Assembly (NCBI GenBank): GCA_003194525.1
Contig: NBIV01000081.1
Span: 232,159 to 296,158 of the forward strand
Source: Gracilariopsis chorda
Lineage: Eukaryota > Rhodophyta > Florideophyceae > Gracilariales > Gracilariaceae
Direction: 5' to 3'
Length of the DNA: 64,000 nt
This document shows positions 1,823 through 53,121 of this stretch, one piece after another (the stretch's first letter is position 1; each line of letters opens with the position of its first letter). The position numbers and the translations under genes were made by a program. The notes under the pieces were generated by a model. That model was not told the origin of the DNA. It worked only from the letters and a program-made list of their open reading frames with translations, and did no database searches.

Positions 1823-4003
1823 TTAGGCGCCGTTTAAGACGCGGAGGTGCTGCAACTTGCTGCACATGGCGTGCAGCGTGGTGCACGCTGATTCGACGCT
1901 GTCCACCCGCACGAACAGCGCGCTGGAGAACGCGCGCAGCTCGTAGCTCGAGTCCGCCGCCAAGCAGGTGGCGCGCTGCGTCGACGCCACCTCGCGCCCG
2001 TCTGCTACCAGCGAAGTGTCCACGACGCGCAGCCAGCGCGCGCCCTCTTCCCACACTCCCCCCCCACTCACAAGTTTGATGCACGTCCCCTCCCCGCTGG
2101 CGTTGAACGCCACCAACACGTCCCGAGACTCCTTCCTATCCACCAGCGTCATGCACAGCACATTCCGCGACTGCCCGCTCCAGTCCGCTGCCGTTCCATT
2201 CTCGCCGTGCCACTTCACGTCCCCCTCTGTCAAGAACCGTTCCCGCCGCAGCACGCCTCTGTCCGCGCGCACAAACATCAGCGCCGCCGCGAATTGCGCT
2301 ACACGCCCCCCCCTCTCCTCGCCCAACGCGCTCCAGTCGAACCAGCTTATGTCGCTGTCCTGGCACCAGCCGTTGTTGTTTCCGCCCTGACTGTGTCCGT
2401 ACTCATCCCCCATGCGGAGCAACGGCGTCCCACCGCCCATCAGCAGCGCCATCATCAAGTTTCGAATCTGTCGTTCCCGCAGCTGCACCACGCCGTCGTC
2501 CGTCGTGTCGCCTTCGGCGCCGCAGTTCCACGACACGTTATGCGCCTCTCCGTCGCGGTTATTCTCGCCGTTACGCTCGTTATGCTTCTCGTTGTACGAC
2601 ACCAAGTCGCGCATGCAGAAGCCGTCATGCGCCGTAACAAAGTTGATCGAGTGATACGGTTTGCGTCCATCCGAGTACAGATCCTCCGATCCGCACAACC
2701 TGGTTGCAAACTCGCCAGTCACGCCGCCGTCTCCCCTGATAAACCGTCGCACGCAGTCTCTGAACTTGCCGTTCCACTCGGCCCACACCCCAAAGTGCGG
2801 GAACGCGCCCACCTGGTACAGGCCGCCGCAGTCCCAAGGCTCCGCAATAAACTTCACGTCGCGCATGCACGCCTCCTTGCACATGCGTTCAACAACGCTC
2901 GGTCGACTCATAGCCTGCCCGTCCGTGCCGCGACACAGAATGCTCGCCAGGTCGAAGCGGAATCCATCCACACCCATTTCATGGCGCCAGTATCGTAAGC
3001 TGTCACAGATCAAGTCCTGCACAATAACATCATTACAATTCACCGTATTTCCACAGCCGGACAAGTTCACAAACTGCTTTCCACCGTCCTTCCACAAGTA
3101 GTACGTATGCGGCGCCAACAACTTCATGCCATAAAAGCCGCGTCCTACGTAGTCGAAGCCCATTTCAGCCGTGTGATTAAACACAACGTCTAGAATAACT
3201 TCTATTCCCGCGCGATGCAGCTCTCGAACCATGTGTTGGAACTGCTGTTTCGCCTCTTGAGGCGAGCTGCCCTTGCTTGCAAACCGATTCATCACGGAGA
3301 AGAAACCGACCGTAGAGTACCCCCAGTATTGGCATAGATGCTTACCGTCATCGCCTGGCGGCAAGCTGTCACCCTTCTTAGGCCCACTCCATTCACTTTC
3401 ATTAAACTCCATGCACGGTAACAACTCCACCACGTTGACGCCCAGTGCCTTTAGGTACGGAATTCGTTTGACGACGCCTTGAAACGAACCGGCGTTTTTC
3501 AAATCGCCATCCAGCTCAGACAAGCGTTTCGTGAATCCACGAATATGAATTTCATAAATGATCACATCCTTCCAAGCAATTTGAGGGCGTGCCACATCCT
3601 GCCAGTCAAACTCATCTTGAGCGTCTTCAACCACAGCCCATGGGTTGTACTGCTCAGCACGGTCACAAAACTTGTCACACCCCGTAGCAGTATGCAGCAA
3701 TCGGGCGTAAGGATCTACACACTCGTTGGTGATCCACGGTCCGCTGTCGGTTCCGATGCGCCACAGGTACGAATAGCGCGGGACGGGCGGTGCAATGGAC
3801 GCATGCCATACCAGGCCTGAGCGGTGTGACGGGGTTAACTTGTATTCGGTGCTGTTGTTTGAGTGGGGCTCTCTCAAGATGAGCACAGCGTGAGTGGGTT
3901 CTCTCGCGTAGATGGCGAAGTTGGTGCACTTTGATGAGGTGGTAGCGCCCAGGGGATACGGCTTACCCAAGTGCAGCGTATGGGTTGTAGATCGGTTCTT
4001 CAT
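1823..4003 (-). CDS. Isoamylase-type starch debranching enzyme
   Basis: This 726-residue glycoside hydrolase family 13 protein would hydrolyse alpha-1,6 branches of starch or glycogen. The order is an N-terminal CBM48-like beta domain (about 10-125), the catalytic barrel with region I DVVFNHT (272-278), region II GFRFDLAS with nucleophile Asp351, region III FIAEPWD with acid/base Glu388, region IV FVTAHDG with Asp460, and a C-terminal beta domain. All catalytic residues are present and the length suits isoamylases. The ATG at 4003 is followed at once by the conserved GKPYPLGAT start of the family, so no transit peptide precedes it. This fits red algae, which store floridean starch in the cytosol (known biology). 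There are no introns. Whether it is ISA1- or ISA3-like cannot be decided by eye. Confidence 0.93.
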   Translation of the reverse strand: MKNRSTTHTLHLGKPYPLGATTSSKCTNFAIYAREPTHAVLILREPHSNNSTEYKLTPSHRSGLVWHASIAPPVPRYSYLWRIGTDSGPWITNECVDPYARLLHTATGCDKFCDRAEQYNPWAVVEDAQDEFDWQDVARPQIAWKDVIIYEIHIRGFTKRLSELDGDLKNAGSFQGVVKRIPYLKALGVNVVELLPCMEFNESEWSGPKKGDSLPPGDDGKHLCQYWGYSTVGFFSVMNRFASKGSSPQEAKQQFQHMVRELHRAGIEVILDVVFNHTAEMGFDYVGRGFYGMKLLAPHTYYLWKDGGKQFVNLSGCGNTVNCNDVIVQDLICDSLRYWRHEMGVDGFRFDLASILCRGTDGQAMSRPSVVERMCKEACMRDVKFIAEPWDCGGLYQVGAFPHFGVWAEWNGKFRDCVRRFIRGDGGVTGEFATRLCGSEDLYSDGRKPYHSINFVTAHDGFCMRDLVSYNEKHNERNGENNRDGEAHNVSWNCGAEGDTTDDGVVQLRERQIRNLMMALLMGGGTPLLRMGDEYGHSQGGNNNGWCQDSDISWFDWSALGEERGGRVAQFAAALMFVRADRGVLRRERFLTEGDVKWHGENGTAADWSGQSRNVLCMTLVDRKESRDVLVAFNASGEGTCIKLVSGGGVWEEGARWLRVVDTSLVADGREVASTQRATCLAADSSYELRAFSSALFVRVDSVESACTTLHAMCSKLQHLRVLNGA

Positions 4004-5353
4004 CTCTCAGCGAGCAGCAAGGTGTAGGAAACGAAGAGCACAGGAACGCAGGGGAAGGTGCGGGGTAGGGTAAAAGACTGCGATGGCGCGCGGGCGGCGA
4101 CTTTGGGTGGAGGAGGAGATGCGCATGGAGATTGTGTGCTTGCGCGCACTCGTGTACAATTGTGTATTGCTGTGTATGATACACGCCTGCACGCGTGCAA
4201 GATGAAACATTTTTATTTTAATAAATGTGACAGCTTGTTTGCGATTCAACACGGCTGCACAAGTGTTTCGGGACGTGTTGCGGGTTTGAAATCGGATGAG
4301 CTGAACACAAACGGCAGGTGATCAAGTGCTTGACTGTTCGCATCTTTTAACTGTGGGACGGCATGCAAGTGCGACGGAAGGTTTGAATAAGCAGGGAGCG
4401 CAAAGTTGTATTATACGTTAGCTAGCTACTGCCCCTTTTCTCATTGTCAACAAGAGCACGGCTACCAATAGAAAGCGTTGTCCAATCGGTTGGTTGTGTA
4501 CCCGCCCAAGGGTGTCCCACCAACAACGTGCCAAGCTAAGTGGCCAGATAATGCAGCGATAGCGTTTTTGAACAAGTGCCAGGTGATCAAAGTTACAGCT
4601 GCGCGCCAGTCAGCGCTCAGAACTACGTCAGCAAAGCGCATGCTGCGTGCGAATTCGTCCTGACGACGCCGAGCGCCAAACAGGGACACAAACCGCTCGA
4701 TTCAGAACACAAAAAAAAGCACGCATCGCGACGACAGCCAACCAGCGCTGAACCGTCGTTCAAGTGGCGGCGGGGGGTGGCACCGCAGAAACAGCAAGTG
4801 ATATCATAAATGCTTGCACAAAAAAGCGCGGCAGTATGGATAAAGGCTCATCGCCGCGCGCGACACGCAACTTGCCGTTGTGCCCACGCCGGCCGAACAA
4901 AGCCATGACAACTGCCCCGAAACGGGAATGGAAGCAGCTGGAGGCACGCCAATGGCGCAACGGCCAACCGACAAGGAAGAGCGGGAGGCGAGCTCTCCCG
5001 AGTGGGCGCGCTCGAGGCGTCCCAAGTTGGGACTCCCAACTACGCACAGCCCCAACACGCGGGGCGTTCTCGAGCAATCAAAACAGCGCATGCCCCACCT
5101 CGCGCACGCCATGTAAGCAGCCGCCGTCAAATCAGCCATGCAAAATGTGCGCGCGGCGGATGCGCTCAAAAACATACCAAAATATAAAAAACTAAATCTG
5201 ACCGTTCTGTGGCTGCCAACGGGCACCGCGCAAAGCGGCCAAGATCTCAACGCGCGCGCGCGATCTGCGCGCAACCTGCGACTCACAATCTTCGCGCCCG
5301 ATGCCGCTCTCCGACGCCTCCCTCCCCGCGCGCGTCGTTCCCGCCTGAACAAT
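4004..5353. promoter_or_regulatory. Divergent intergenic region, weak TATA-like site
   Basis: These 1.35 kb separate the isoamylase start (-) from the small membrane-protein start (+) and should hold both promoters. The only suggestive element is an A/T-rich TATA-like box (AATATAAAAA) at 5181-5190, upstream of the + gene. Short ORFs here have no family features and look like shadows of GC-rich sequence. Confidence 0.35.
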
Positions 5354-13251: not shown

Positions 13252-13850
13252 TATGACCGACACTTCCGCCTTTTCTAGACTGCGTCGAAAGCAGTTTTCA
13301 CAACTTGACCGCTCTAACGTCGTCTATTTCGACTACACCGGCGCATGTTGCGTGCCGAAGTCGCTCCCTGAATAGCACATATCAAATATTTCCTCCAACG
13401 TGTACGCTATCCCGCATTCGGCCTCAATGCCGTTCTCAGCTGCCACCGCCGCCTTTCACGGCGCCAAGACAACGGTATTGCGCTTCTTCAATGCGCCAGA
13501 TCACAAATCATCTTCACTGCAAACGCCTTCTCGGCCATTCACCTCGTCGCGCAAACCTTTCCTTTCGACCGCCATTCTACGCTATACCTCACCGCCGACA
13601 ACCACAACTTCATGCTGGCGCTCAGGGAGTTGGCCAGATGCCTCGTTGCAGAACCGTGCTAATTCCCCTGCAATCCCGCCTAACGCTTTCGCAGCCTCTT
13701 TCATATATCTACAAACATACCGCCCCCACTGGTTCGCTATCGTTGTTCGCCTATACAGCGCAGTCCAAATTTTCCGGCGTTCGGCATGATATACACCTCG
13801 TGCAGCACGCCCACTACAAGCATATACACGTCAGTAGGAGCCGTACACAG
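13252..13850 (+). pseudogene. Moco-sulfurase-like class V aminotransferase, N-terminal fragment
   Basis: From ATG 13252 the frame reads a typical start of this family (FSQLDRSNVVYFDYTG, then VYAIPHSAS and AVLRFFNA-like sequence) with an in-frame TAG at 13372. Near 13,500 the match shifts frame (TANAFSAIHL, LYLTADNHNFML) and again near 13,700 (SLFAYTAQSKFSGVRHD). All segments are collinear with pyridoxal-phosphate-dependent molybdenum cofactor sulfurase-like proteins. It stops at about 13,850, at the 3' end of the HARBI1-like gene, which may have truncated it. The PLP-lysine region is missing. Confidence 0.6.
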
Positions 13851-15024
13851 TCCTTATTTGATTGTATCCAACCTTTCTTGTGCAATAGTTAGAAAGGTGA
13901 CAGGCCACGCTGAGCAGTCTGCCTCGCTTACGCGAGTTGGATGGAAGTGTTGTACTCAGGCGGCGAAACGATGCACGTAACCCCCGAACTCCCCACTCTG
14001 CACTCTTCCGCTCGCTCGTATATAACCGTTGAGGCAACAACTCGATTGCGGCGCACTCGACGGACTTGGGAATAGTCCTCATCTCATTGAGCTTTCGTGC
14101 TCGCAGAACCTTCCCATTTGTCACCCGTGTATTGTTGACAAAGGCGCTATCACTTAGAATAGCATAACCTGGAGGTGTGATCGTATTGTCTTTTAGAGAG
14201 GGCCAATACAGTCCTGAAACATAGGCCAGTTTACTATCATGCCAACTTCCCGGAAAGTTTAACGCAGCGTGGATTATCTCGCCCTTCAAGTTCCACACAA
14301 GAAGGTTCGTTACCTCTACCTGCTGCGTGAAAGCTTGAAAATGCGCATTCTGCGCATCAATATCGTCGAAACTAACACATTTGAAGCGCGCTCCGTCTGT
14401 CACACCGAACATTCCACGCAGTGTATACCCATACGATCGATACTTCTGCAACAGCTGTGTTGATTCTTCCATTTCGGCAACAGTTGGCCATACGATTCGA
14501 AACGCCTCGTAGCTTGGGTCTCTCATCACATCCCACAGAATCTCCAACGAATAATCTAACCATTCCGATAGTGAACTTGGCGTGATTCCAAAAGCTCTGC
14601 ATAGTTCGTACATCACATCTTTCGTTCTTATGTAAGAAATTGCAAGCCCCAACAAGTCCTCTGAGTTTAGGAGAGGCTTTCGACCAGTCGAAGAAGTAGT
14701 ATGGTGAAATGGAGAACCATTGTGCACTTCCCATCTTCTTTTGTCAAACCATGGAAGAAGTTCACCAAAGAATAAAAAGCGAGGCACCGATAGCGCCACA
14801 ACAAACTGAAAGTCATCACCGTTTTTCAGAAGACATTGCCATGAAGTTTCTTGGCAAATGGGGTGTTCTATGCCATGTCTAGTGTACTTTAGTATTCGGC
14901 ACGACTTGTTGTGCGACGGTCGAGATTGATGTAGTACAAAGAGAATGTTGGTTATTGCAACGGCAAGGATGAGAATAAGCTGTACATCTGAATCCATGTG
15001 AGTTTTGAGAAAAGAAGAACTCAT
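13831..15024 (-). CDS. HARBI1-like (DDE_Tnp_4) transposase, open reading frame intact
   Basis: A 397-residue open frame from ATG 15024. The catalytic triad is readable: Asp in GVTDGARFKC, Asp in PGSWHDSKLA, Glu in KSAEWGVRGL, followed by the usual LSNYCTRKVG and NQIRTVY tail of this transposase group. A helical N-terminal region precedes it. Unlike nearly every other transposon gene here it has no stop or frameshift, so it is either a young insertion or retained by selection. Terminal inverted repeats were not identified. Its 3' end overlaps the edge of the aminotransferase fragment on the other strand. Confidence 0.85.
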   Translation of the reverse strand: MSSSFLKTHMDSDVQLILILAVAITNILFVLHQSRPSHNKSCRILKYTRHGIEHPICQETSWQCLLKNGDDFQFVVALSVPRFLFFGELLPWFDKRRWEVHNGSPFHHTTSSTGRKPLLNSEDLLGLAISYIRTKDVMYELCRAFGITPSSLSEWLDYSLEILWDVMRDPSYEAFRIVWPTVAEMEESTQLLQKYRSYGYTLRGMFGVTDGARFKCVSFDDIDAQNAHFQAFTQQVEVTNLLVWNLKGEIIHAALNFPGSWHDSKLAYVSGLYWPSLKDNTITPPGYAILSDSAFVNNTRVTNGKVLRARKLNEMRTIPKSVECAAIELLPQRLYTSERKSAEWGVRGLRASFRRLSTTLPSNSRKRGRLLSVACHLSNYCTRKVGYNQIRTVYGSY

Positions 15025-15293
15025 CACATTAGAGTTAGTCGATGATCATTTATGCGTAAAGAGAGAAGGAGTGCTTGTTTTCTTACTCGAATCTTGCTTC
15101 CCATTGCACCATACAGCAATTGCGAAAGTGTGGCGGGTATGTGCTTGGTGTTACAGTTTCCACACTTTCAGGCAACAAGACGAGCGTTTCTAGCCACTCT
15201 GATTCGCTCTATGTTTGTGAAACTGTGAAACTGTGATTTCCCGGATCCCCCCAGTCTTCTTTGTACTGTTAGACAGCTACCACAAGCAACAAC

Positions 15294-27521: not shown

Positions 27522-28298
27522 TGTGGTGCAAAAACCCAAAAGGGAGACGAAGCACGAGGGTGTTCGAATTCCTCCTCTCTTTAGAGGGTAGCATGGCGAC
27601 AAACCCATCTGTGGTGAGCACACAAGCCGGTCGTGAACCGGGGCTCACTTCACGACTAGCGTACAGGTGCAAGAGCGGCCTAGAAAAGGATCGAATACAC
27701 GCAGAGTAGTGATAGTGCAGAACGGGTGGTCACTCGTACAAGGAGTGCGCGACGGTTCACCGGTAAGCACAAAATATGCCACCTGCATAATAGAGTACTG
27801 AAAAGAAACAAAACACACAACAAAAGACAAACGCAAGTCTATAAATGTGGTTGAAAGCGCCACGAGGTGGATGGCTAGTCTTACACAAGGCGACGAATCG
27901 CCGAGGGAGGATATCGTGCACCTGGGGTTTCTGAGTCAGAGCCGAACACTCGCTTGTGCGATGTTTATTGACCAGGACGCCCCAAGCTAACCTACCTAAG
28001 TAGGGTGCCGGCCGTCAACCGTACACTGTAATAACTAATTATGTAGATAGATAAGTAAATAGATAAATAAATAAATAAATAAATAGTCGTAACCGTATCC
28101 CTAAAAAGGGGTGCCTGCATACGTACACGTGTGTTATTCGTAGTCCTGTCACCTGTGTCCAATTAACACGATTTCAAGTGTGCCATGGCCAACCCATTGG
28201 GGAATTAGTTCTCATATACGTGGCTAAATCCAACTCTCGTCACGAGGCATGTATGAGCGTGCATCACGATTAATCACCGCGAAGGGCGTTGCTCTACA
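27522..28298. repeat. Solo LTR B, copy 1, with perfect target duplication
   Basis: 777 bp from TGTGGTGCA to GCTCTACA, flanked on both sides by GCACA. A second copy is at 49,743-50,508. Shared landmarks are CCTCCTCTCT-AGAGGG, ACCTACCTAAGTAGGGT and the CTCGCTTGTGCGA block. It has several short hairpins (CCGGT-CGTGA-ACCGG near 27,630; CCTAC-CTAA-GTAGG near 27,990). It splits the piggyBac gene. Confidence 0.78.
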
Positions 28299-28371
28299 GC
28301 ACAACGCTGCCGTCTCGGCCAAATGTTAGGTCCAGATGGAGAGCAGTTGGAAATAGCGCTCAATTTGTCAC
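28299..28371 (+). pseudogene. piggyBac-like transposase, segment 3
   Basis: A short piece between LTR B and LTR C reads TLPSRPNV then RSRWRAVGNS and FVTVE, fitting the family between YFVSTSGT and the C-terminal part. It ends at the GTCAC duplication (28,367-28,371). Confidence 0.6.
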
Positions 28372-28851
28372 TGTAGAGCAATGCGTGCGCGCATACCCTC
28401 TAGGCGAGGTGGATCATAAATGATTCAATACTGACGTAGCATCGGTTTAATACAGGTATGAGTGGACCTTCGGAAATATTGGGTGAAATTGGATAAGAAT
28501 TTTAATTGGTATTTCTGGAACCTTTGGAGGTGATTTCTGTGGTCTCTGGAACAGATGGACGCGTGGCAAGCGCACGGATATTATTCATGGTTGGTATGAT
28601 GCACACTTGTCGTTTTGCGCCGTGGCCGGCAGTGCCGCCAAGTGACACAAGAGTGTGGACCACAAGTTTGGCACACTACAGTAGTAGTATTGTTAGTTTA
28701 TTGTGACCCAATAGTACCTAACGGAGGAGGGCCTTGCCGTTTCACCATGAAGTAAAGACAAGCTGTGACTTGGCTCTGAGTTTATCGCCTGCGCAAAGTG
28801 ATCAACTCGTGCTGGGGTTTCACCCCATTTGGTCTCGTAATACTTACCCGC
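28372..28851. repeat. Solo LTR C, left part (split by the Ty3 element)
   Basis: Begins TGTAGAGCAA at 28,372, directly after GTCAC. Its other half is at 38,587-39,053, ending TTGCTCCACA, followed again by GTCAC. The two halves sum to about 947 bp. The Ty3 element inserted inside it, duplicating CCCGC (28,847-28,851), which is CCCGT at 38,582-38,586. Confidence 0.7.
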
Positions 28852-29678
28852 TGAAGTGCAACGCCCTCAGGGAGGGATTCCTGGTACTTGATCGTTTTCC
28901 CGATATTATCGGTTGTGTAGTGTGTATATGAACTACGCCCCACAATGGTGGGTATGGACACGTGGGACACGGTTTTGGGTCAATTGGCGGTTGTCCACAG
29001 TAGTGGATGTTGCCACGAAATGTGGAGTATTTTAGTTAATATTATTTATTATTTTTACACCCATTTCTGGGAAGCTAGTACTTAGTGCGACGGCGCACTG
29101 CCGTCGCACCAGTAAACCTTCCCCAACAAGGGACCCCAACCTGGGGAATTGGCTCTAGTTGTTGCCGCTTGCGCGCGTACTCTACTCCTCCTTGGAGGGA
29201 AACGCCGTAAACCACGGGACATCTAACCCCCTTGCACATCTAAAGAAGCCCATCCTTGGGAGTACAATTGTTCCAATCATATTGGTGTTTCGCCCTGTAT
29301 AGGGAGTCCTGTCCACCGGCATTGCCGTATCTGTTCGTCGCTCTCGCGACTCACATCGTCCTCTCTTCCTACTCTCCGCCCTTCCTTTTTCCCCTTTTTA
29401 GGGTAGCACCTCCCGCTATCCGCGGCCCTCGTGTGCGCATCCGCTCACACACCCCCACTTACGTGGAAACATACCTCTACTGAGGATCACACCCCGCTCA
29501 CGCCGATACCGACTCTTCGCCTTCACCTCCCTGCGCGAGTCGCGACAGGTGCCCCTGGTCTTACAAACCGGCTTCGCCGTGACACGTCTGGGAGGGCTCT
29601 ATCCAACTGGGTTCACCTCGTGAGAGGAAGATCACGAACGTCTTTCGGTGTTTTTCCCCTTTGGGGCATTGCACCACA
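28852..29678 (+). repeat. 5' LTR of the Ty3 element
   Basis: 827 bp, starting TGAAGTGCAACG and ending GCACCACA. It includes a perfect 10-bp stem (29,085-29,094 with 29,100-29,109, loop GCACT) and many smaller hairpins such as CCTCC-TT-GGAGG and CCAAT-CAT-ATTGG. It should carry the promoter and poly(A) signals; none is obvious by motif. Confidence 0.92.
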
Positions 29679-29681
29679 AAG

Positions 29682-29703
29682 TGGTCTCCCGACCTAGAAT
29701 CGG
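29682..29703 (+). other. Primer-binding site of the Ty3 element
   Basis: Three bases (AAG) after the LTR comes TGGTCTCCCGACCTAG and then AATCGG. The complement reads as a tRNA 3' end: CCA, discriminator A, acceptor strand TCGGGAG, T-stem CTAGG and T-loop bases CGATT. Complementarity into the T-loop is longer than the usual 18 nt. The implied primer tRNA begins CTCCCGA; it is not the tRNA-Glu at the window end. Confidence 0.6.
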
Positions 29704-29783
29704 TTTTTGTTTTCCCTCTTACGAGGTTTGTTTTTATTTACCGGACGTTCCGTGATCGTTTCCCGTGGTAACGGTATTTTCTC

Positions 29784-31958
29784 ATGTCGAGGAATCCCTC
29801 CGATGCGGAGCCAGTGGTTACGCGTAGTCGCTCCCGCGACAACGCGGACACCTCCAAAGTTCGGTTCGTACCCCGTATCCCTATACAGACATGTTCCAGC
29901 CGTACTGGCGCCGCTTCATCGCGGAATGATACCCCCGACCGGGAACCCCGGAACCTCCTTTTGCCCTCGTTATCACCCCCGCAGGGGAATGCAGCATCGA
30001 CTCCGGCTGTTGCCGCAGTGCCCCAGGCACCCCGGCCCGCTCCCGCTGTCGCGGCTTCAAACCCTCGTGGAACGGGCGATAACAACCCCCAGGGGACTTC
30101 CCTGGAATCCCAGGTCCGCGCTCTGTGGACCGCCCATGACACCCTTGTAGGGGAACTAAAATCCCTCCAAGAGGTGGTCTTGGCAACCCCCGTAAAGGAG
30201 GTCGCCGAGGAACTCCGTATTTTACGGTCTGACGTCAACTCCGTGTTGGAGAGTTTGGGACAACCCGCCACCTTCATCGAAGGAGTTGAAGCCCGATTTG
30301 ATCGGATTGGTACCCGCCTGGAGACGCTGGAGCAGTTCGTCCTCATGGACAAACCATCCCCGGGTGATCCGGTAAACGAGGCATCGCACAACGACCAGAT
30401 TGCTGGGAAGAAGAAACGCCGTCATCGACGGAAACACCACCGAAAATATTCGGACTCCGATTCTTCGACATCGTCTGACTCATCCCGAAACCATTCGGTT
30501 AGCTCGAGCTCCTCGGACTCCGACTCGGAGGACGAGAAGCGAGGCTACTCCTCCCGCTCGAAGTGGTCATCGGCCACTGAAGGTGTGGTCCGAACCCGCG
30601 AGAAGGGGAGAAGACACCCCGGTCTTCGGGAATTGAAACCGACAAACCCGGATTATCGGAAGCTTTTATCATACCGGTACTACCGGCTCGAAGACTCGTC
30701 ACTTGGACGTACGCCCCGTGGTACGGGAAAGGTGCGAGAATGCATTAAGCGAATGCAGCTCTCGCTCCGCAACCAGTATTTCACTGGAGAGGACCCAGTT
30801 CTAGTACTGGATTTCCTATCCCGCTTTGTAGCGGAGGCCGATATCCTCGGTATGAATGAGGGACAAGCCTATTTGGCTTTGCCATATTTCTTACGGGGAA
30901 TGGCGGAGGACCAATACAGCTCTGTCAGATGATCTTTTCGTGCCTCCGAGGGAGGAGTTACTTGCTGGCCGGAGACTGTGCAGTATCTACTGCGCTCTTA
31001 CGCCACAAACACCGCTATCCAGCAGGCTATCCTCGCTTTGCGAGATACACGCCAGCGTGCTGGAGAGACCGAGACCGATTAATCGGTGCGCCTTAACATG
31101 GCTTTCCACAGATGTGGTAACGTATACCCCGCTGGGGAGCGCAGTACCATGTTCATCGATGGTCTTGACCCGGCAATCCGGAGTTTAGTTACCCGTTATC
31201 GGGAGGACAAGCGGAGGATCACCTATCTCGAGCTAATCCAACACGCCCGAGCGGAAGGGGATGCACTTCGTGCAAGAACTCTGAACAATCGGTCTAAATC
31301 CGCCAAGGCGTTGTTGCTGGAAAGCGAAGCTTCCTCTCTCCCGCTCACAGCGGATGGGAACCCTGGACAAAGATTTGATACCGTGCATTTGGTGCAGGAG
31401 GATGGTGTGTCGATACCCACCAGTGACTTACCGTCAACGACGGAGATGACCCGTGATACGGGAACGGAAGACCCCGTTTTGTACGGTGGTAACAGTAGGG
31501 TTCAACCCCAACGACTCCCGTTTTCAAACGGTCAATCCCGTTATCAACGGCCTGGATGGACTGACACCCGCCCTGCGGTTCGCTTCTCCGATACTCGGAA
31601 TAATAATCCGCGTGTCGCGGTATTGGCTCTCATTTGCCACCTGCGCTATACCCATGGCCATACCTCACCTCAGTGTGTTTGTTCACTGAAGGATATGGCC
31701 AAGGTAGTGGCAAATTATGAGGCCCTCACTCCAGAGGAGAAACGTTCCGTTCCGACGGCTTCCTACCTCCGTGCTAAAACAGACTTTTCCCATGCCCTAC
31801 CACAGACCCCGCGTGCGCGGCAAGCTTCATACACCCCGATTCGGGAGATCACGCAACCATCCGTTGCAACCCCCGCTTATGCGGATAGAAACCCCCGTCA
31901 ACGGGATGAAGCACTCGTTGTCGAGGAAACCAACCCACCGCCGAAGGCGGAAAACTAA
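29784..31958 (+). pseudogene. Ty3 Gag with in-frame TGA and TAA
   Basis: ATG 29784 opens a frame that runs to 31,958, broken by TGA at 30,930 and TAA at 31,080. Sequence between and after them is clearly Gag in the same frame (ETVQYLLRSYA, then RLNMAFHRCGNVY and MFIDGLDPAIRSLV). An Arg/Ser-rich region (about residues 205-260) and a capsid-like domain are followed by a nucleocapsid knuckle CHLRYTHGHTSPQC (about 31,635-31,680), whose second zinc Cys has become Arg (CGC for TGC). Gag forms the particle; this copy cannot. Confidence 0.85.
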
Positions 31959-34900
31959 CTGAGGGAGTCTCCCCTTTGGGAGAGGCGTCCTCAAGAACGA
32001 GGCTGTTGGGGCCCGAGGCGTCCTCGCCTTGCTCCCCGGTGAAAGTCCTCTCGAGGAAAGACACCGCTGACGCGGACTCTGCGCACCTCGGTGTGTTGCG
32101 TCGCCCGTGGATACGGAGTAAAAATCCCCGGATTCCCGGTAGAGTCTTGGTCTTGGCCAAGCGCAATTATAAGGTCTATGCCGACCTTGGCCTTGATCCC
32201 CAGTTTATAGTGAGGTTTCTCACCGTCCTGGATATAGGTGCAGGCCCCAACTTTGTTGTGGAATCATTGTTACCCCCGCTTGTGCGGTCTCGTATCCGCT
32301 CTAACGCGGTCCCCGACATTTCGGATGCGAACAACAATCCGTTACAAACGGTGGGCACAGTGGACCTCGTCGTGAGACTTGGTACCTCTGTGGTGAAGTT
32401 GGACTTCATCGTTTGCCGTTCATTGGCAGCACCAGTCATACTGGGATGTGATTACTGCGACAGATTTGTCGACGCAATCAGCCCCCGCCTCAGGCGTGTA
32501 GAACTTGACGACGGATCGTCGGTTCCGATTGTTCGCCGCCCGCTAAAGCGGTCCTCTCGGAAACAAGTTCCGCTCCCCGCTGCGCAGGAACCACCGCCCG
32601 CGTCCCGCGAGTCCACCAAGCTCCGCGTCGCTGCCTCGGTTTCTATACCGGCTGAGTCCCAAGTCTGGGTGCAGGTAAATTCCCGTCAACACGGTCTTCG
32701 GGTCATACAACCCCCCGCCTAGTTGTACGTGAAATCCCAGCTGGCGCTGGCTAATGGAATTGTCTCCATTTCCCCGGATGTTCCTTTCTGGATATTGGTT
32801 GCCAACCTTGGCAAACACCCCCAGTATCTGGTAAAACACCAAGTAATTGGGAGTGTAACCCCACATCCTATGGGAATGCTGCCAACGAAGATGACAGCCG
32901 CCGATGTACTCGGAGGTACCACCTCTTCTGAGGAGTTCGCCCCACCGTCCGAAGACGTCAAGTCTAAGGAGGGGGAGGAAGCCGCTACTTCAGCGTCGAA
33001 CAAACCGAGTAACTCGGAATTGCGAACCACACCTGTTCCACAGGACAATGCTCCATCGAGCAACGACCGGATTGATCCGGAAAAAGCACTTGAAGCGCTG
33101 GACTTCAGCCACGTGCCAGAGTCGCACCGCGACAAACTCCGTACCATGTTACGGGAATTCACCACAATGTGGGATGGCTCGCTTGGCGAGATTAATGCAA
33201 CGGAACACCGGATCGATTTAATCTCCGGTGCGCGACCGGTTGCACAACCCCCTTACAGGGCAGGTCCGAAAGCTCGGGAAGAGGAGCAGTCCCAAGTGGA
33301 CAAGATGCTCCGCGCAGGTGTGATTGAGCCCGCTCAATCACCCTGGGCATCCCCAGTTGTACTGGCTTTAAAGGCCGACGGAACCTGGAGGTTCTGTGTC
33401 TACTACCGCCGGCTTAATGCCGTCACCGTTAGGGACACGTACCCTATCCCTCGTATGGACGAGTGCATCGACTTCCTTGGAGACGCCACCGTGTTCACGG
33501 CCCTTGATGCCAATTGGGGATATTGGCAAGTACCTGTCAGACAGGAGGATTGCGACAAAACCGCATTCACCTGCCACGCAGGAACGTACCGCTTCAAGCG
33601 GATGCCATTTGGGTTAACCAACGCCCCTGCCACCTTTCAGCGTGCAGTAGATATTCTACTCAATCGCTTTAAGTGGCGGAGTTGTCTGGTCTACCTTGAT
33701 GATATTATCATCTTCTCCAACTCGTTGGACGACCATCTCACTCACGTCGGAGACATGCTGACTGTACTCCACGATGCGGGAATTACCCTCAAGTTGAGGA
33801 AATGCGAGTTTTTCACGGATACTGTGAAGTATCTGGGTCACATTATCCGTCCTGGACGGTTAGCGATCAAGAAAGCTCGAGTCAAATCCCTCGTTGAGGC
33901 GAAAGAACCCCGTACTCAAACGGAACTGCGCTCCTTTTTGGGGCTGGTCAACGTCTATCGACGGTTTATCCCGAACTTTTCGGATACTGCAGCGCCCCTA
34001 AACGCGTTGTTGCGAAAGGGGAACCCCCCAAAACTGGGAACATTTACGCCCGAGCAATCGAAAGCTTTTAACTCCTTGAAGGAGGCTGTCACATCAGCAC
34101 CAATCCTACATCTCCCAAAACTTGGGTTGCCATACTCCGTAGATACAGACTCGAGCGACTACCAAGTCGGGTGTGCTCTTTTTCAAACCACCCCCGAGGG
34201 GGAACGACACCCAATTGGTTATTGGTCGCGCTCGCTCAATGTTCATGAGCGGAACTACTCCGTATCGGAGAAAGAGTGCCTCGCCGTCGTATGGGCGACG
34301 ACCACTCTGCGCCCCTACCTTATGGGAATTCACTTCACCGTGTACACGGATCATTCCTCATTGAGGTGGTTGATGAATATCTCCGACCCGTCGGGACGCC
34401 TCATGCGCTGGAGACTCCGCCTCGCGGAATATGACTTTCAAGTCATTTATAAAAAGGGCGCGCAGAACACCCAGGCCGACGCTTTATCGCGGTTACCCAC
34501 AAGTGGGGAGGCACTCCCAACGGAGGATGATGAAGTCCCATGCTTCATGGCTATAGAACCGGATGATCCGGAATATGCCGTCGAGGCTGGGCCAGAAAAC
34601 TGGGACGAGGATGCTGACTTTGAAGAAGTACTCGCATCGCGAGATGAATCTGAGAACCCGATACCGGGAAACTTTGTACTGGTATCACCGGAAGAAATGA
34701 TCCGAGAACAATTCGGCGACCCATTCTGTACGAGGATTCGTGCCCGTCTTAACGGTGGTGAAGATCTCCCTTTCGGGGTAAACGACAAAGGCTACCTCGT
34801 AAGGAAGGTCGAAGCCTGCCCACAGATTGTGGTACCTCATTCCCTGCAATCGCGGGTGTTACATCTATCACACTACGCCCCCATCGGAGGTCACCCAGGT

Positions 34901-36196
34901 GGGAGGAAACTCTACCTAACCCTGCGAAGGGATTTCTATTGGCCCGCCATGGCGGTGGATTGCTACGCAACCGTGCGGTTTTGTAGCGAATGCGCGAAGA
35001 ATCGCGTCAAGCTCGGCAAAAATGCGAAGAAGATGAAACTATTCCCCGCAAGGGCGCCGCTCGAGTTTATCGCGATCGATATTCTCGGACCACTACTCAC
35101 CACAAAACGTGGAAACAAGTTTCTACTTGTCATTACCGACCGCTTTTCTAAGCTGGTACGGACTGTCCCTCTTCGGAGGATAACCGCTCTCACGGTGGCC
35201 CAGGCTCTGGTGACGCACTGGATTTTTGTCTACGGTCCCCCTGTGGAGGTGCTCTCCGATAACGGGAAACAGTTCGTGAGCAAGTTCTTCCAGGATGTTT
35301 GTCGCATCCTGGATGTCAAGAACTTGTTCACCACTACCTACCACCCCCAGTGTAATGGGCAAGTTGAACGGTTTAACAGGACGTTACTCGCGGCGTTACG
35401 TTCCTACGTCGCTGACCACCCAACGAATTGGGATCTCTACGCTGATGCGGTAACCTACGCGTACAATACGCAGGTACACCGGACTACCAGAGTTTCGCCA
35501 TTCGAGTTGGTTCTATCTAGAACACCCCCGCCTGTGGCGCTGGAACCCCAAGCTACCTTGGACAATTTCCCATCTGTGGGTATCTACCGGCAGCAATGGA
35601 AGCAATGGCTTTCCAAGCTGGTCCCCGCGGCGCAGAAGTCTATGGCACGGGCCCAAGCCGCTTCCAAGCGGGATTTTGTCGCTCGCTTGCGAGGAAAGAC
35701 CCCCCCGATTCGGGCAAATAACTACGTCTTCATCAGGAAGGAGTACTACAATCCGGAACGGGAGAAGCATCACAAACTCTCGCCTGTGGCGGATGGATTA
35801 TTCAAGGTCATCTCTGTGAACACCGACACTGTCGTGGTAGAGATGGGCGACACGCACGAACGGATTTCCCGTGATCGTGTTGTCCTTGCCCCTCCTCCCT
35901 CGTCAGAGGTAGTCCTGGATCCAGGCAACCCCGTTTCTACGGACTCTGCAACACCGGAATCATCCGGGCATACTAGGCCTACGGTATTACCACACCCCAG
36001 CCGGGGACTCTCAGACCTACCGACCCTGTTGGACTCACCGGCTCAGCCGGGTAATTCGGGCCTCTCAGCGCCCGCCCCTACCACGCCCGCCCCACTGGCG
36101 CGCATTTATACCCGCCAGGCGGGGAATGTTATCCCTTATCCCGCCGCTCCGTCCAAGAAGGGGGACGAGAACACTCGTTTTCGAGGAACGATATAG
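31910..36196 (+). pseudogene. Ty3 Pol: protease, reverse transcriptase, RNase H, integrase
   Basis: One frame throughout, interrupted by TAG at 32,720. Protease: VLDIGAGPNF (32,228 on) with DIGA instead of the usual DTGA or DSGA, and ILGCDY. Reverse transcriptase: YPIPRMDE, then YLDD at 33,692-33,703. RNase H: SVDTDSSDYQVG, YTDHSSLRWL and QADALSRLP. Integrase: an HHCC zinc region (34,855-34,995), then Asp at 35,078, Asp at 35,258 and Glu at 35,366 (DD35E), with CNGQVERFNR. It ends in TAG at 36,194. All catalytic residues are kept; only the stops break it. Confidence 0.92.
31953..31983 (+). promoter_or_regulatory. Candidate -1 frameshift signal between gag and pol
   Basis: Gag ends GCG GAA AAC TAA at 31,947-31,958, and the pol frame (-1) is open from 31,910, so the frames overlap. 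The heptamer GGAAAAC is near to, but not, a canonical slippery site. Twelve bases on lies a perfect 6-bp hairpin, TCTCCC-CTTT-GGGAGA (31,968-31,983). The pol frame has no good ATG before the protease. Confidence 0.4.
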
Positions 36197-37435
36197 CCGT
36201 CGCAACGGGAAGTTGAAACGCAGCTACCGCACACCCCTGTCAGGGAAGGATCCCCGTTACGGGAGTACGGCGACGATCGCCCTCAATCCCCTGAGCAGGG
36301 CGATGCCTCGAAGCCGCCGTTGGCGGAAGTCCCCGCGGAAGCGGTTCAATCAGGTCGATCAGGGCCGCGCCTTGCGGAGAAGAGGCGCCCAGATACACCA
36401 GCGCCGCTGGGAAATCCCCACACCCAACCTGGGGAAAAAGGTAGCCAAGCCGCAGCCGAAGCTTCAGGCCCTGGCCCGCAAGCGCCGGAAACGCCTCCCG
36501 TCGTCGACGGAATTGAAGCCCCCGTTCCGGGGAATAATTTGCGCCACCTCCCGCAACGCTGCGGGGAAGAACCGAGGAACTCGGAAAAAGCGCACGCCAT
36601 CGCACGCTCGAAACCGGTCATACCGGACGCTGCTCCTCCCCTTGGAGACGGTGCACCGCACTTAGCGGCCAAGCCCCTGAAAAGGGTGTCATCGGCACCT
36701 GCCCGGCACCCCCCAAAGGGGAATTTTGACCAAAATACCGATGTACCGGAGTTTGCCCCAGGCAACCCGTCAGTAGCCGGGGACACCACGGCATCGCCGG
36801 AAAGTATGGTGCAGAGCGCTCGTGCACCTGGCAGGGAGGCGGTTTGCCACCCAATCACCGTGTCGCACGGGACCCCCCAGGGGATTGTGGGAATGCCGAT
36901 TCCGCAGGAGCGGTCATCTTCCTGCAAACTCGCGGTTCGTGAGCTCAACCGCGAAGGTGGAGCCCAAGTCCCCCGCCGACTGGCGGTTCGCCCGCAATAC
37001 CGCGAAAGTGGAAATGAACCTGCCCCAAGGGGGAATGACTTGCCGGTGAAAACCGTGGCACCACACACCCTCTTGAGGGCTATCTTCCCGCATGAGCAGC
37101 GGCCGCTATCACAGCGCACGGCAACGCCCGAGTTATCGCCGAACACCCTGCTAAGGGACATTATACCGCACCGCGGGCAACCCCCGCAAGGGATTACAAC
37201 CACCACCCGGTACGGCCGGCAGGTCTACGAACGAGAATTCGTAGTAGACCGACTCGTCGGACACACCTGGGACCAGGATGGTATTCTACAATACCGCGTC
37301 CGCTGGTACGTGTATGACCCCAGTGGGGATACGTGGGAGTCAATCGAACACCTCCCGCGGTCGCAGGTCGTGCGATACCACCGTCAAACGGAAACTGCAG
37401 CTCCAGCCACGCTGGTAAATGCCCAAGTTGGGTAA
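36197..37435 (+). pseudogene. Ty3 Pol tail: Pro-rich linker and C-terminal chromodomain
   Basis: After TAG 36,194 the same frame stays open to 37,435. The first 340 or so codons are Pro/Arg/Gly-rich and unrecognised. The end is a chromodomain: YEREFVVDRLVGH, then LQYRVRWYVYDPSGDTWES (about 37,225-37,390). Chromodomains on Ty3 integrases direct insertion to marked chromatin (known for chromoviruses). An unusually long linker separates it from the integrase core. Confidence 0.75.
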
Positions 37436-37742
37436 CGTTGCCGCGCGAACGGAGGGCGATAGGAAAGGATAACAAGGCAAGGTCCGTCGAAGACGGGGAA
37501 CTCAAACGAGAATCACCGTTCTAAACGGGAAAGTTTGTTCAAGGGAGCAGCTAGCTCACCACAACACTATACTACACTGCTGGCTATGCCAGGAAAGAAG
37601 AACTAGGAAACAACGGCTGCGGTATCAGGGGCTAGTGACTCTGATGCAGAGGAAATTACCGGAGAACCGGAGACGGCGCACGCGCTTTTATCACCCATTT
37701 TCGTCTGGGAACCCTCCGCGTCCGCGGTTGTTTTCCCGTCTT

Positions 37743-37754
37743 AGGGGGGGGATA
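37743..37754 (+). other. Polypurine tract of the Ty3 element
   Basis: The purine run AGGGGGGGGATA directly precedes the 3' LTR, apart from one T. This is the expected site of plus-strand priming. Confidence 0.8.
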
Positions 37755-38581
37755 TGAAGTGCAACGCCCTCAGGGAGGGATTCCTGGTACTTGATCGTTT
37801 TCCCGATATTATCGGTTGTGTAGTGTGTATATGAACTACGCCCCACAATGGTGGGTATGGACACGTGGGACACGGTTTTGGGTCAATTGGCGGTTGTCCA
37901 CAGTAGTGGATGTTGCCACGAAATGTGGAGTATTTTAGTTAATATTATTTATTATTTTCACACCCATTTCTGGGAAGCTAGTACTTAGTGCGACGGCGCA
38001 CTGCCGTCGCACCAGTAAACCTTCCCCAACAAGGGACCCCAACCTGGGGAATTGGCTCTAGTTGTTGCCGCTTGCGCGCGTACTCTACTCCTCCTTGGAG
38101 GGAAACGCCGTAAACCACGGGACATCTAACCCCCTTGCACATCTAAAGAAGCCCATCCTTGGGAGTATAATTGTTCCAATCATATTGGTGTTTCGCCCTG
38201 TATAGGGAGTCCTGTCCACCGGCATTGCCGTATCTGTTCGTCGCTCTCGCGACTCACATCGTTCTCTCTTCCTACTCTCCGCCCTTCCTTTTTCCCCTTT
38301 TTAGGGTAGCACCTCCCGCTATCCGCGGCCCTCGTGTGCGCATCCGCTCACACACCCCCACTTACGTGGAAACATACCCCTACTGAGGATCACACCCCGC
38401 TCACGCCGATACCGATTCTTCGCCTTCACCTCCCTGCGCGAGTCGCGACAGGTGCCCCTGGTCTTACAAACCGGCTTCGCCGTGACACCTCTGGGAGGGC
38501 TCTACCCAACTGGGTTCACCTCGTGAGAGGAAGATCCCGAACGTCTTTCGGTGTTTTTCCCCTTTGGGGCATTGCACGACA
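37755..38581 (+). repeat. 3' LTR of the Ty3 element
   Basis: 827 bp, TGAAGTGC to GCACGACA. It differs from the 5' LTR at nine positions, of which six are C/T exchanges. One difference breaks the hairpin CCTC-TACT-GAGG of the 5' LTR (CCCC here). It is followed by CCCGT. Confidence 0.92.
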
Positions 38582-38586
38582 CCCGT

Positions 38587-39053
38587 ACAGTACCATCAAG
38601 GACCGCTGATCTGTCTTACCGGGTCGGTTCGCCTAGTGTTCACTTTTGTTTCCGTTTATGTCTACTTTTTATTGTGCGAACAGATAGCCGTTCGCGTCAG
38701 TATTGAGTTTTGCCGTGGTGGCTGAACAAGCAACATCCCCCACCGTCGGTTCTCTTCGGGCTTGCCGCACGACCCGCTGGGTTGTACCTTCCCTCTTGGT
38801 TTCTCCCCTTTTTCCCTTTTCCCTTTCTGTATTCTCCGTGGACCGGAACACCGCTCACACGTACCTGTGCACTACGTTGACTAGCTGCTAACCCGATTCT
38901 CGGAATCACCTTGGTTTGTATCGCCGGAAGCCACCTCAGTTTTACACCCCAACACCGTGTGGTACGGAAGGCCCTGTCGCTGCATCTACCTCACAAGAGA
39001 GCAAGGTTGCGAACATCTTGGGAGGATTCCTCACCTTGGGATATTGCTCCACA
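38587..39053. repeat. Solo LTR C, right part
   Basis: Second half of LTR C, ending TTGCTCCACA at 39,053, which mirrors its start TGTAGAGCAA. GTCAC follows at 39,054-39,058. It contains only non-domain ORFs. Confidence 0.7.
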
Positions 39054-45626: not shown

Positions 45627-46452
45627 TGAAGTGAAACGCCCTCAGGGAGGGATTCCTGGTACTTGATCGTTTTCCCGATATTATCGGTTGTGTAGTGTGT
45701 ATATGAACTACGCCCCACAATGGTGGATATGGACACGTGGGACACGGTTTTGGGTCAATTGGCGGTTGGCCACAGTAGTGGATGTTGCCACGAAATGTGG
45801 AGTATTTTAGTTGATTTTATATATTATTTTCACACCCATTTCTGGGAAGCTAGTACTTAGTGCGACGGCGCACTGCCGTCGCACTAGTAAACCTTCCCCA
45901 ACAAGGGACCCCAACCTGGGGAATTGGCTCTAGTTGTTACCGCTTGCGCGCGTGCTCTACTCCTCCTTGGAGGGAAACGCCGTGAACCACGGAACATCTA
46001 ACCCCCTTGCACATCTAAAAGGACCCATCACTGGGAGTCATATTATTCCAATTGCATTGGTGTTTCACCCTGTATAGGGATATTGCTACCGGCATCGCCG
46101 TTCGTCCCCGTCGCTCTCGCTACTCACTTCGTCCTCTCTTCCTCCTCTTCGCCCTTCCTTTTTCCCCTTTTTAGGGTAGCACCTCCCGCTATCCGCGGCT
46201 CTCGTGTGCGCATCCACTCACACACCCCCCCTTACGTGGAAACCTACCTCTGGCGAGGACGCATTTCCGCTCTCGCGGATACCGATTCTTGTCCTAAACC
46301 CTCTTGCGCTAGTCGCGAAGGGTGGCCTCGGTCTTACAAACTGGCTCCACCGTGCCACCCCTAGAGGGGCTCTACCCAGCTGGGTTCACCCGCACGAAGG
46401 AAAGATCCCGAACGTCTTTCGTTGTTTCTCCCCTTTGGGGCGTTGCAACCCA
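45627..46452 (+). repeat. Solo LTR of the big Ty3 family, perfect target duplication
   Basis: 826 bp alignable end to end with the 827-bp LTRs at 28,852 and 37,755, including the 10-bp hairpin near 45,870, but more diverged. It is flanked by ATTAG on both sides (45,622-45,626 and 46,453-46,457), so it is a solo LTR left by LTR-LTR recombination. A gag remnant of a related element begins about 100 bp downstream; that juxtaposition may be chance or nested insertion. Confidence 0.82.
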
Positions 46453-51588: not shown

Positions 51589-53064
51589 TTAAAATCTTAA
51601 GCCGCACAAGAAGCTTAGCTTCTCAAGAGTTTCACCTCTTACAGCCATTTTTAACAAGTCAGCTGGTTGCAGATCAGTTCTTATCTTCGCAACATTAACA
51701 ACCCCAATCTTCATCAGCTCTTTCACATGATGATACTTCAATGCAACATGCTTGTTCCTTTCTGAAACCTTGGGTTTATTCAAAATTGGCGTTGCTGTTC
51801 TGCTGTCAGAATACAACAGAATGGCATACATGTCAGGTTCACTCTGGCTCAGAACTTTGTCACTGCACATCTCGCAGAAGAGCCTACATAGCCATGTCAA
51901 CATCTTACCGCAGTAAGAAAGAGCAGTATATTCAGCTTCTCCAGACGACCATACAATCATGGTCTGCTTTTTCGTCGTCAACATTATTGGTGCTTCATTA
52001 ACCTTAATCAACAATCCAGTCGTAGACTTTCTGGTCTCACGAAAACCGACCCAGTCTGCATCACAATATGCTTCCATTGGCGCTAGTACCTCCGAAGGGA
52101 AAAACAAGCCAAGATTCTTCGAACCCTTCAGGTAACTTAGTTCTCTCTTCGCTAAACCCAAGTGCCTCATGCACGGGTCGTAAACCTGTCTTGCCAGCAT
52201 CGAAGCTGCAAACATTGTGTCCAGTCTGGGTGATACAGCCAGGTACATCAAATTTCCTACCACATTACGGTAGCGACCGTGAAGCGCGGGCGATAGACCA
52301 TCTTCATTTTCACATCCACTGCTTAAGTCACATGGAGAGGGCAATGGCGTCCTAGCAAGATTAGAGATAAAGAGCTTATACTCTTTCAACATCTTATCAA
52401 GGTACCTGGATTGCTGGACTTTGATACCATTCTTGCTCCGTTCAATATCCAGTCCAATAAAGGACTTTGCTTCATCTAGGTGTCTCATTTGAAACAGCCC
52501 CTTCATGTCTTCTTCGAAGTCATTCAGGAGAAATACCGAATTGGACAACATCAGTATGTCGTCAAGAACCACGACGAGGGTCAATGTTACCTTCCCAGAC
52601 TTAAACAGGTACAGGTGACTGTCTGTGCTGGACTGCTTGAAGCCATGTCCGAGTAATTCCTGATAGAGTAGAAAGCCCCATACCTTTTTGGCTTGCCGTG
52701 CGCCATTGATAGACTTCTTCAGTAGGCACACCTTTCCAAGGAGGTAAGAGGATTCTGATGCGTTCTGGGGCTGCTCCATAACCAAAGGTTCCTCAAGGTT
52801 GCAGTACAGATACGCATTGCTGATGTCCATGGTTTCCATCAGTAGAAATTGGGTGGCGGCCTTCGCAATAGCTAACTGAATGGTTTCCAATCGAGCTACC
52901 GGAGCGCAGAGGTTATCCGGATCAAAGTCCAAGTAAGGGAGTTGCATGTCACCACGGATTACGCAACGTGCTTTCGGGAGTATACTAATAGTACTGGTAT
53001 TCAGATGTTTCCCCATGAAGGTCCATAGGAAGGGAAGGGGGTTCATGCCCGGTTTCCTATCCAC
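51589..53064 (-). CDS. copia-1 reverse transcriptase and RNase H (open part of pol)
   Basis: A 491-codon frame. Sense-strand landmarks: GMNPLPFLWTFMGK, KARCVIRGDMQLPYLDFDP, VARLETIQLA, MDISNAYLYCNL, VCLLKKSINGARQAKK, then the polymerase active site VVLDDILMLSNS (Leu-Asp-Asp, where copia usually has VDD), LMYLAVSPRLDTMFAAS, and RNase H motifs AYCDADWVG, TKKQ and EAEYTALSYCGKML. The frame opens just after a TGA at about 53,077, so it lacks the first part of pol in frame. It is too complete to call decayed on its own, but the element as a whole is broken. Confidence 0.85.
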   Translation of the reverse strand: MDRKPGMNPLPFLWTFMGKHLNTSTISILPKARCVIRGDMQLPYLDFDPDNLCAPVARLETIQLAIAKAATQFLLMETMDISNAYLYCNLEEPLVMEQPQNASESSYLLGKVCLLKKSINGARQAKKVWGFLLYQELLGHGFKQSSTDSHLYLFKSGKVTLTLVVVLDDILMLSNSVFLLNDFEEDMKGLFQMRHLDEAKSFIGLDIERSKNGIKVQQSRYLDKMLKEYKLFISNLARTPLPSPCDLSSGCENEDGLSPALHGRYRNVVGNLMYLAVSPRLDTMFAASMLARQVYDPCMRHLGLAKRELSYLKGSKNLGLFFPSEVLAPMEAYCDADWVGFRETRKSTTGLLIKVNEAPIMLTTKKQTMIVWSSGEAEYTALSYCGKMLTWLCRLFCEMCSDKVLSQSEPDMYAILLYSDSRTATPILNKPKVSERNKHVALKYHHVKELMKIGVVNVAKIRTDLQPADLLKMAVRGETLEKLSFLCGLRF

Positions 53065-53121
53065 GAGTACCCATGTTCATGTGCTTACGACTGCATTGTA
53101 TTCCCTGTCGATAGTTTCAGC

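Follow-up and report, generated by a model that had tools for sequence, protein, structure and literature searches.

Why would a retrotransposon be able to fold into tiny hairpins along its whole length? The question is raised by a 64,000-nucleotide (nt) stretch of the red alga Gracilariopsis chorda (contig NBIV01000081.1, positions 232,159 to 296,158 of the forward strand; here called the window), in which an initial annotation described a long terminal repeat (LTR) retrotransposon rich in short perfect hairpins. Its domain content assigns this element (28852 to 38576, forward strand) to the chromodomain-bearing Ty3/gypsy LTR retrotransposons: a Pfam scan placed reverse transcriptase (RT), RNase H, and the integrase zinc-binding and core domains in that order, followed by a chromodomain after an in-frame stop. 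The hairpin observation is confirmed, and the interpretation first attached to it is partly supported. All seven parts of the element that were tested carry an excess of hairpins of one small size class, and among the lineages sampled the trait belongs to a single Ty3 clade.

Hairpin excess and hairpin shape

Two measures were used. Stems are perfect, of at least 5 bp, with loops of 2 to 7 nt unless stated otherwise; frames are perfectly paired outer frames with a total length of 11 to 14 nt and at least four pairs. Expectations came from 20 dinucleotide shuffles per 1-kb tile and from 200 codon-preserving shuffles per open reading frame (ORF). Between 30001 and 38000, each of the eight 1-kb tiles held 12 to 29 stems against 4.5 to 6.5 expected (z of 4.0 to 8.6). 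In 500-bp tiles, z exceeded 3 without a break over 28501 to 38500, and the signal ended with the element. The window background is not perfectly flat, as six 1-kb tiles outside the element reached a z of 3.2 to 4.6 (26001, 42001, 43001, 45001, 51001, and 54001). Six 500-bp tiles elsewhere in the window also exceeded 3, two of them lying on a solo LTR of the element's own family (45627 to 46447, forward strand; 89.4% identity to the 5' LTR). This solo LTR, with 30 frames versus 7.0 expected (4.3-fold), is hairpin rich to the same degree as the 5' LTR of the element.

The 11 stems named at the outset are all present, the eight in the RT region having 5 to 9 pairs counted from their ends. The 281-bp RT stretch in which those eight lie (33321 to 33601) holds 10 nonoverlapping stems. 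In the integrase core, an 8-bp stem at 35290 to 35312 (9 bp at 35289 to 35313) is nested within a second 8-bp stem at 35282 to 35325, and the 5' LTR has a 10-bp stem at 29085 to 29109. Two statements need correction. The isoamylase gene of the window, said to hold about one stem in a comparable stretch, has three in 3001 to 3300, and to describe the element as made up almost wholly of hairpins goes too far: interior stems of at least 5 bp with loops of 2 to 5 nt have a mean spacing of about 61 nt (standard deviation [sd], 45). No regular spacing is evident from this mean and sd, for which no formal test was made.

The excess is not accounted for by coding constraints. The pol ORF (32723 to 36196), encoding RT, RNase H, and the integrase zinc-binding and core domains, contains 72 stems, whereas codon-preserving shuffles average 20.0 (sd, 3.9; maximum, 30). 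An artifact of composition, codon usage, or repeats might be suspected, since a stricter shuffle that also fixes neighboring bases raises the pol expectation to 27.2 (sd, 4.5). Its maximum of 41 nevertheless falls well below the observed count, and the retention and compensation tests described below do not depend on composition; we therefore reject this explanation as vanishingly improbable. The four shorter ORFs have 25, 15, 17, and 22 stems, counts never reached by plain codon shuffles (means of 8.1, 5.3, 5.7, and 9.0); under the stricter shuffle, which leaves few free swaps in these ORFs, the maxima were 23, 17, 17, and 21, and the observed count was reached in two of the four.

The frame excess is even along the element, coding or not, ranging from 3.2- to 4.3-fold in all seven parts tested. 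It is 4.2-fold in the LTR (5' LTR, 28852 to 29673; 32 frames versus 7.6 expected), 3.9-fold in the leader, 3.6-fold in the first gag-side ORF (29775 to 30932; 47 versus 13.2), 4.3-fold over 30933 to 32722, 4.1-fold in pol, 4.0-fold in the chromodomain ORF (36197 to 37435; 58 versus 14.7), and 3.2-fold in the 3' noncoding part. The region from 30933 to 32722 takes in a second gag-side ORF (31083 to 31958; 15 stems versus 5.3 in codon shuffles) and an ORF at what would be the protease position (31910 to 32722; 17 stems versus 5.7).

The excess is concentrated in a narrow range of sizes. Over the whole element, the enriched total lengths are 11, 12, 13, and 14 nt with at least four pairs; 12-nt frames (D12) with 4-pair stems number 75 versus 24.6 expected, and 13-nt frames (D13) with 5-pair stems number 56 versus 5.3. 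Lengths of 15 nt or more show a small, patchy excess (e.g., D16 with six pairs, 9 versus 2.0), and stems longer than 6 bp are few. In the genome, the element's relatives fall into six families, F1 to F6, of which F1 is the element's own; the length peak is at 13 nt in F1 and at 12 to 14 or 11 to 13 nt in other families, and the preference is sharpest in F1.

The stem base is polarized as well. The second stem pair is 5'C-3'G rather than 5'G-3'C in ratios of 86:15, 21:4, 21:4, 22:2, and 22:2 in five families, compared with 7:14 and 13:6 in the RNA phages MS2 and Qbeta, respectively. For the outermost pair, the ratios are 91:18 in F1, 22:4 in F2, and 13:3 in F4, compared with 17:11 in MS2 and 12:11 in Qbeta. 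This polarity suggests that something recognizes the stem base. On the coding strand, stems are flanked by A more often than by T, both just before (78 versus 42) and just after (93 versus 51); the pooled counts, 171 A versus 93 T, depart from strand symmetry (Fisher P = 2.3e-6).

Pairing has also left its mark on the protein-coding sequence. In the three codon phases in which one stem pair falls at a third codon position, hairpins exceed codon-preserving shuffles 1.8- to 2.2-fold, and in the nine phases with more third-position pairs, they do so 2.6- to 6.1-fold. The excess thus rises with the number of synonymously tunable pairs, which bears out the proposal that synonymous positions are shaped by pairing. 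Amino acid choice is bent too: the protein-level ratio is 1.28 to 1.54 where a single pair is tunable (three phases) and 1.30 and 1.33 in two D13 phases out of three, the remaining seven phases lying at 0.90 to 1.09.

Distribution of the trait and setting of the copy

The genome examined comprises 91.3 Mb in 1,081 contigs and contains at least 40 close copies of the element. Its seven matches to the phycobilisome linker family, together with the isoamylase gene of the window, accord with a red algal host. We sampled 58 RT loci of 2.2 to 4.0 kb, consisting of the best-scoring listed matches (150 of 3,380 candidates were scored) and copies of the element; it is a sample of best matches rather than a census of Ty3 lineages. 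Nucleotide linkage joined 55 of the 58 into one clade, the six families F1 to F6. Stem ratios (observed over expected) were 4.6 to 5.8 in eight F1 loci and 2.6 to 3.3 in 30 other loci of the same comparison, which is also the range of the listed loci of four other families. The sixth family, with L072 as its sole member, is weak (1.66-fold; z = 2.7). The families sharing the trait have RT identities of 75 to 83%. By the frame measure, F1 has 347 versus 86.1 expected, and five F2 to F6 loci together have 504 versus 176.9.

Outside this clade, the three distant Ty3 lineages in the sample (RT identity of 35 to 39%) had stem ratios of 1.25 to 1.38 and frame ratios of 1.04 to 1.28, and 12 copia loci of the same genome had ratios of 0.51 to 1.23, so that a trait of all retrotransposons in the genome is rejected. 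Eight of these copia loci (L045, L047 to L051, L053, and L054) lie below the shuffle expectation, at 0.51 to 0.66, the opposite of the Ty3 clade. A host-wide feature is likewise rejected, given frame ratios near 1 in four 10-kb genome samples (1.03, 1.14, 1.07, and 1.34, the last with a z of 2.6) and in the isoamylase ORF (1.18). In keeping with the earlier claim, the element is far denser in hairpins than most of the host DNA sampled. Among 40 1-kb tiles from the genome samples, L039:5001-6000 reached a z of 6.1 and two more reached 3.0 to 3.1; a tblastn search with F1 proteins found no match in L039.

We also scored 76 Ty3-like loci from elsewhere (L078 to L153), whose contigs are deposited under named bacterial or archaeal assemblies but, judged by their content, are probably eukaryotic contamination. 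Their median frame ratio was 1.20 and their maximum was 1.79. The 15 with a z above 3 (including L084, L087, L088, L107, and L122) were enriched 1.39- to 1.79-fold, and their pooled excess was about level from 13 to 20 nt, unlike the 11- to 14-nt preference seen here. Searches of viral contigs with a single protein and with an alignment, and of genome contigs with a single protein, gave no matches. Computation restricts the trait to one Ty3 clade among the lineages sampled. Whatever its function, a trait that marks one Ty3 clade and none of the 12 copia loci sampled from this genome makes it possible to tell causes specific to the element from those common to the host.

The copy in the window, all of whose parts lie on the forward strand, is broken by in-frame stops, for example, ahead of 32723, where the stop of the putative protease ORF abuts pol, and ahead of 36197, beyond which the pol frame continues into the chromodomain (PF00385; 1.7e-08). 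Related families include copies with open frames of at least 1,490 codons around RT. The LTRs are 822 bp each with TG...CA ends, and the 3' LTR (37755 to 38576) is 99.03% identical to the 5' LTR (8 of 822 positions differ). A primer-binding-site-like stretch at 29682 to 29694 starts with TGG, 8 nt past the LTR, and presumably pairs with the CCA 3' end of a tRNA. A polypurine run at 37743 to 37752 adjoins the 3' LTR and is likely the plus-strand primer. The Pfam scan gave no matches for the gag-side ORFs or the 31910 to 32722 ORF; by eye, the second gag-side ORF contains what we take to be a CCHC-like motif (31635 to 31676), with one Cys missing in this copy.

Inspection by eye of the flanks (28837 to 28851 and 38577 to 38590) revealed no 4- to 6-bp repeat that would mark a target site duplication. 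The 2 kb upstream of the element has 2.55-fold frames and is made up in part of other dispersed repeats, which lie at 27522 to 28299 and 28372 to 28851 (22 of 40 and 18 of 40 other scored matches, respectively; 73 to 89% identity). The element may have inserted into the latter, whose match reaches the element edge, where the query ended. The minus strand of the window carries a DDE_Tnp_4 transposase-like ORF (13831 to 15045) and a copia RT ORF (51589 to 53076).

Selection, mutation, and the form in which hairpins act

If hairpins are maintained, the changes separating copies should spare them. We moved the same changes within 200 bases, keeping codon position, base, and synonymous status, in 400 simulations. 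Across the 338 pol differences from L002 to L006, two copies on either side of a divide between F1 subfamilies, 45 of 55 stems were retained versus 31.4 (sd, 2.6) in simulations, and total stems numbered 60 versus 38.3; no simulation reached either value, and the same held for all five comparisons across the divide. L006 and L002 are 97% identical in the RT region and 91% over the 4-kb loci, with the differences crowding on the integrase side; L006 to L008 look like a recombinant subfamily. The private mutations of five copies (14, 11, 2, 30, and 32; 89 in all) fit random placement on the whole, leaving 57, 58, 58, 55, and 57 stems versus 56.1, 56.5, 57.5, 55.9, and 54.0 at random. That the hairpin bias vanishes after insertion is less firmly shown, as only 89 private changes bear on it.

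Between families, the positions of hairpins are mostly not conserved: single hairpins turn over, with 21 to 23 of 26 F1 stems broken in each of five other-family loci. The check for compensatory change that the initial annotation had proposed was nevertheless positive at this distance. In 1,127 hairpin comparisons, drawn from 28 ordered and nonindependent comparisons of six sequences, 175 hairpins stayed perfect, 79 of them with changed pairs, versus 11.1 (sd, 3.2; maximum, 20) in 200 permutations. Both arms differed in 791 comparisons, against 736.4 expected under independence.

These counts bear on the idea that the hairpins are a mutational by-product, the RT of this clade folding the nascent strand back on itself and perfecting near-palindromes at each cycle. 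Such a process would suit the strict Watson-Crick pairing without G.U, a signal about equal on both strands, and the bending of amino acid choice where synonymous change helps little. Yet it predicts the copying of one arm, whereas both arms have changed in most comparisons; the excess tracks the number of synonymously adjustable pairs; and no mutational source is obvious for the fixed length or for the CC...GG polarity. We consider this explanation improbable. Taken together, retention between subfamilies, compensation, the dependence on tunable pairs, and the amino acid bias favor selection acting during element replication, and we conclude that the hairpins are very probably selected.

The form in which they act is a separate matter. 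The C/G bias at the stem base had been read as strand specific and hence as a sign of an RNA-level cause, an argument that is void because a 5'C...3'G stem is identical on its reverse complement, so that the base bias cannot separate RNA from DNA. A double-stranded site would have the same symmetry: a dyad whose 5'CC...GG3' ends are spaced by roughly one turn of the helix and recognized by a dimeric protein, such as a factor for silencing, chromatin, or integration, would look the same on both strands and would agree with the outer spacing of 11 to 14 bp and with the even density in LTR and interior. The inner positions of CC...GG frames, however, vary and yet remain complementary (pair fractions of up to 0.63; 79 versus 11.1 in the permutations above), which dimer recognition does not need, and the A-rich flanks differ between strands. 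We regard the dyad site as very unlikely. The complementarity of varying inner positions and the compensatory changes point to a single-stranded hairpin rather than a double-stranded dyad site, and RNA is its natural candidate, one that we consider probable. As for the strand asymmetry suggested for examination, it appears in the coding-strand flanks, which are the sole strand-specific hint, and is absent from folding energy.

Proposed dispersed binding sites and known systems

The explanation that we favor, with somewhat less than even confidence as a whole, is that the hairpins are dispersed binding sites for a protein of the element. Clade-wide, the whole transcript would be able to fold into tiny hairpins a few dozen bases apart, typically of 11 to 14 nt in total, with four or five Watson-Crick pairs, a loop of 3 to 5 nt, a 5'C-3'G pair near the base, and an A beside the stem. 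These hairpins would work on a single strand, most probably that of the sense genomic RNA, as many redundant sites for Gag or its nucleocapsid part, and once bound they may compact the RNA and tag it for packaging. With redundant sites, density could persist as individual hairpins are lost and gained. A dispersed site for binding or condensation would fit the even spread, the redundancy, and the turnover, and Gag would be its obvious reader, although binding by Gag in particular is a guess that we offer tentatively. A bolder formulation, which we find rather doubtful, is that the clade carries a second, size-limited hairpin code over its protein code, with well over 100 redundant sites of 11 to 14 nt that are read by Gag, replace a single 5' packaging signal, and bend amino acid choice.

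Several observations weigh against the proposal of dispersed Gag-binding sites. Gag binding and RNA folding are here predictions at the level of sequence. The four comparisons between closer copies are weaker (0, 24, 17, and 1 of 400 simulations reach the observed total), and the private changes of L005 lean toward retention (29 of 400). In F5 the length limit is less sharp, with frames of 15 to 17 nt numbering 9 versus 2.9, 6 versus 2.3, and 7 versus 2.5, and outermost-pair polarity is weaker in F3 (11:6) and F5 (16:7). Of 300 codon shuffles, 10 reach the flank asymmetry and 50 reach the low G content of the loops. The copia RT ORF of the window is itself enriched 1.60-fold in frames (z = 2.2), and the trait was seen in one genome only. 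In yeast Ty3, the interior (nt 429 to 4979) is dispensable for retrotransposition with proteins supplied in trans, according to PMC4974528; a related element thus needs no interior sites, which counts against a general Ty3 rule and not against a clade-specific one.

The folding results weigh on the same side. Stems allowing G.U pairs number 160 versus 145.5 expected, while perfect stems number 346 versus 109.1. G.U pairs showed no excess over A.C mismatches in the families, nor in MS2 or Qbeta; this strand test was first taken to speak against RNA and was withdrawn because the two phages, whose RNAs are structured, behave alike. Folding energy, expressed as mean z at 120-nt windows with or without a 16-nt span limit, is low about equally on both strands under the limit (sense strand, -1.43 to -2.28 in five families). 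Unrestricted sense folding is weak (-1.35 in F1 and -0.31 to -0.78 in other families) and similar in the hairpin-poor lineage L068 (-0.60). Overall RNA stability is therefore not the thing kept.

Tiny local folds might instead shield the RNA from small RNAs, antisense RNA, nucleases, or long duplexes, with no protein reader. Genome-scale ordered RNA structure (GORS) has been proposed as such a protection in RNA viruses. A density that is even across the element, noncoding parts included, and that is kept while single hairpins turn over would be expected, and an excess of the same kind, if weaker, is seen in MS2 (39 versus 13.2) and Qbeta (42 versus 14.7). If any local structure served, however, neither the 5'C-3'G polarity nor the preference for 11 to 14 nt would be expected; the phages enrich longer stems too, and the 12 copia loci in the same genome lack the excess. 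Global protection seems to us rather unlikely.

If the proposal of dispersed Gag-binding sites is true, an LTR retrotransposon would be using the dispersed RNA recognition that has been proposed for RNA viruses; sequence alone would suffice to reveal it, and several families and at least 40 close copies would provide natural replicates. It would also mean unusually strong RNA-level selection on synonymous sites and some amino acid sites of a mobile element. Our literature search, mostly at the level of titles and the starts of abstracts, turned up no publication about this clade or about an LTR retrotransposon rich in hairpins.

The element's RT, RNase H, integrase, and C-terminal chromodomain order and its TG...CA LTRs are those of Ty3/gypsy chromodomain elements (Metaviridae). 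By comparison with GORS, folding energy without the span limit departs little from that of shuffled sequence in four of the five families. MS2 and Qbeta likewise exceed dinucleotide shuffles in short perfect stems, by about 3-fold, but their enrichment extends to longer and mismatched stems, and the 5'C-3'G polarity is missing from MS2 and weak in Qbeta. In single-stranded RNA viruses, the dispersed packaging signals of Twarock, Stockley, and colleagues are, as outlined in PMC6281560, many hairpins spread over the genome that share a feature and serve capsid assembly. The hairpins described here are likewise many, spread, and alike in one feature, the 5'C-3'G second pair of five families; that feature lies at the stem base and its recognition is putative, whereas capsid protein assembly is the role described in the viruses. 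Among retrotransposons, the yeast Ty1 and Ty3 RNAs have, according to PMC11381356, a mosaic of stable structured regions covering up to 30% of the RNA; in Ty3 these are dispersed, and the RT domain contains many pairs of high probability. By that published description, the yeast elements are structured mosaics, whereas the G. chorda element is enriched in one hairpin size class in each of the seven parts tested.

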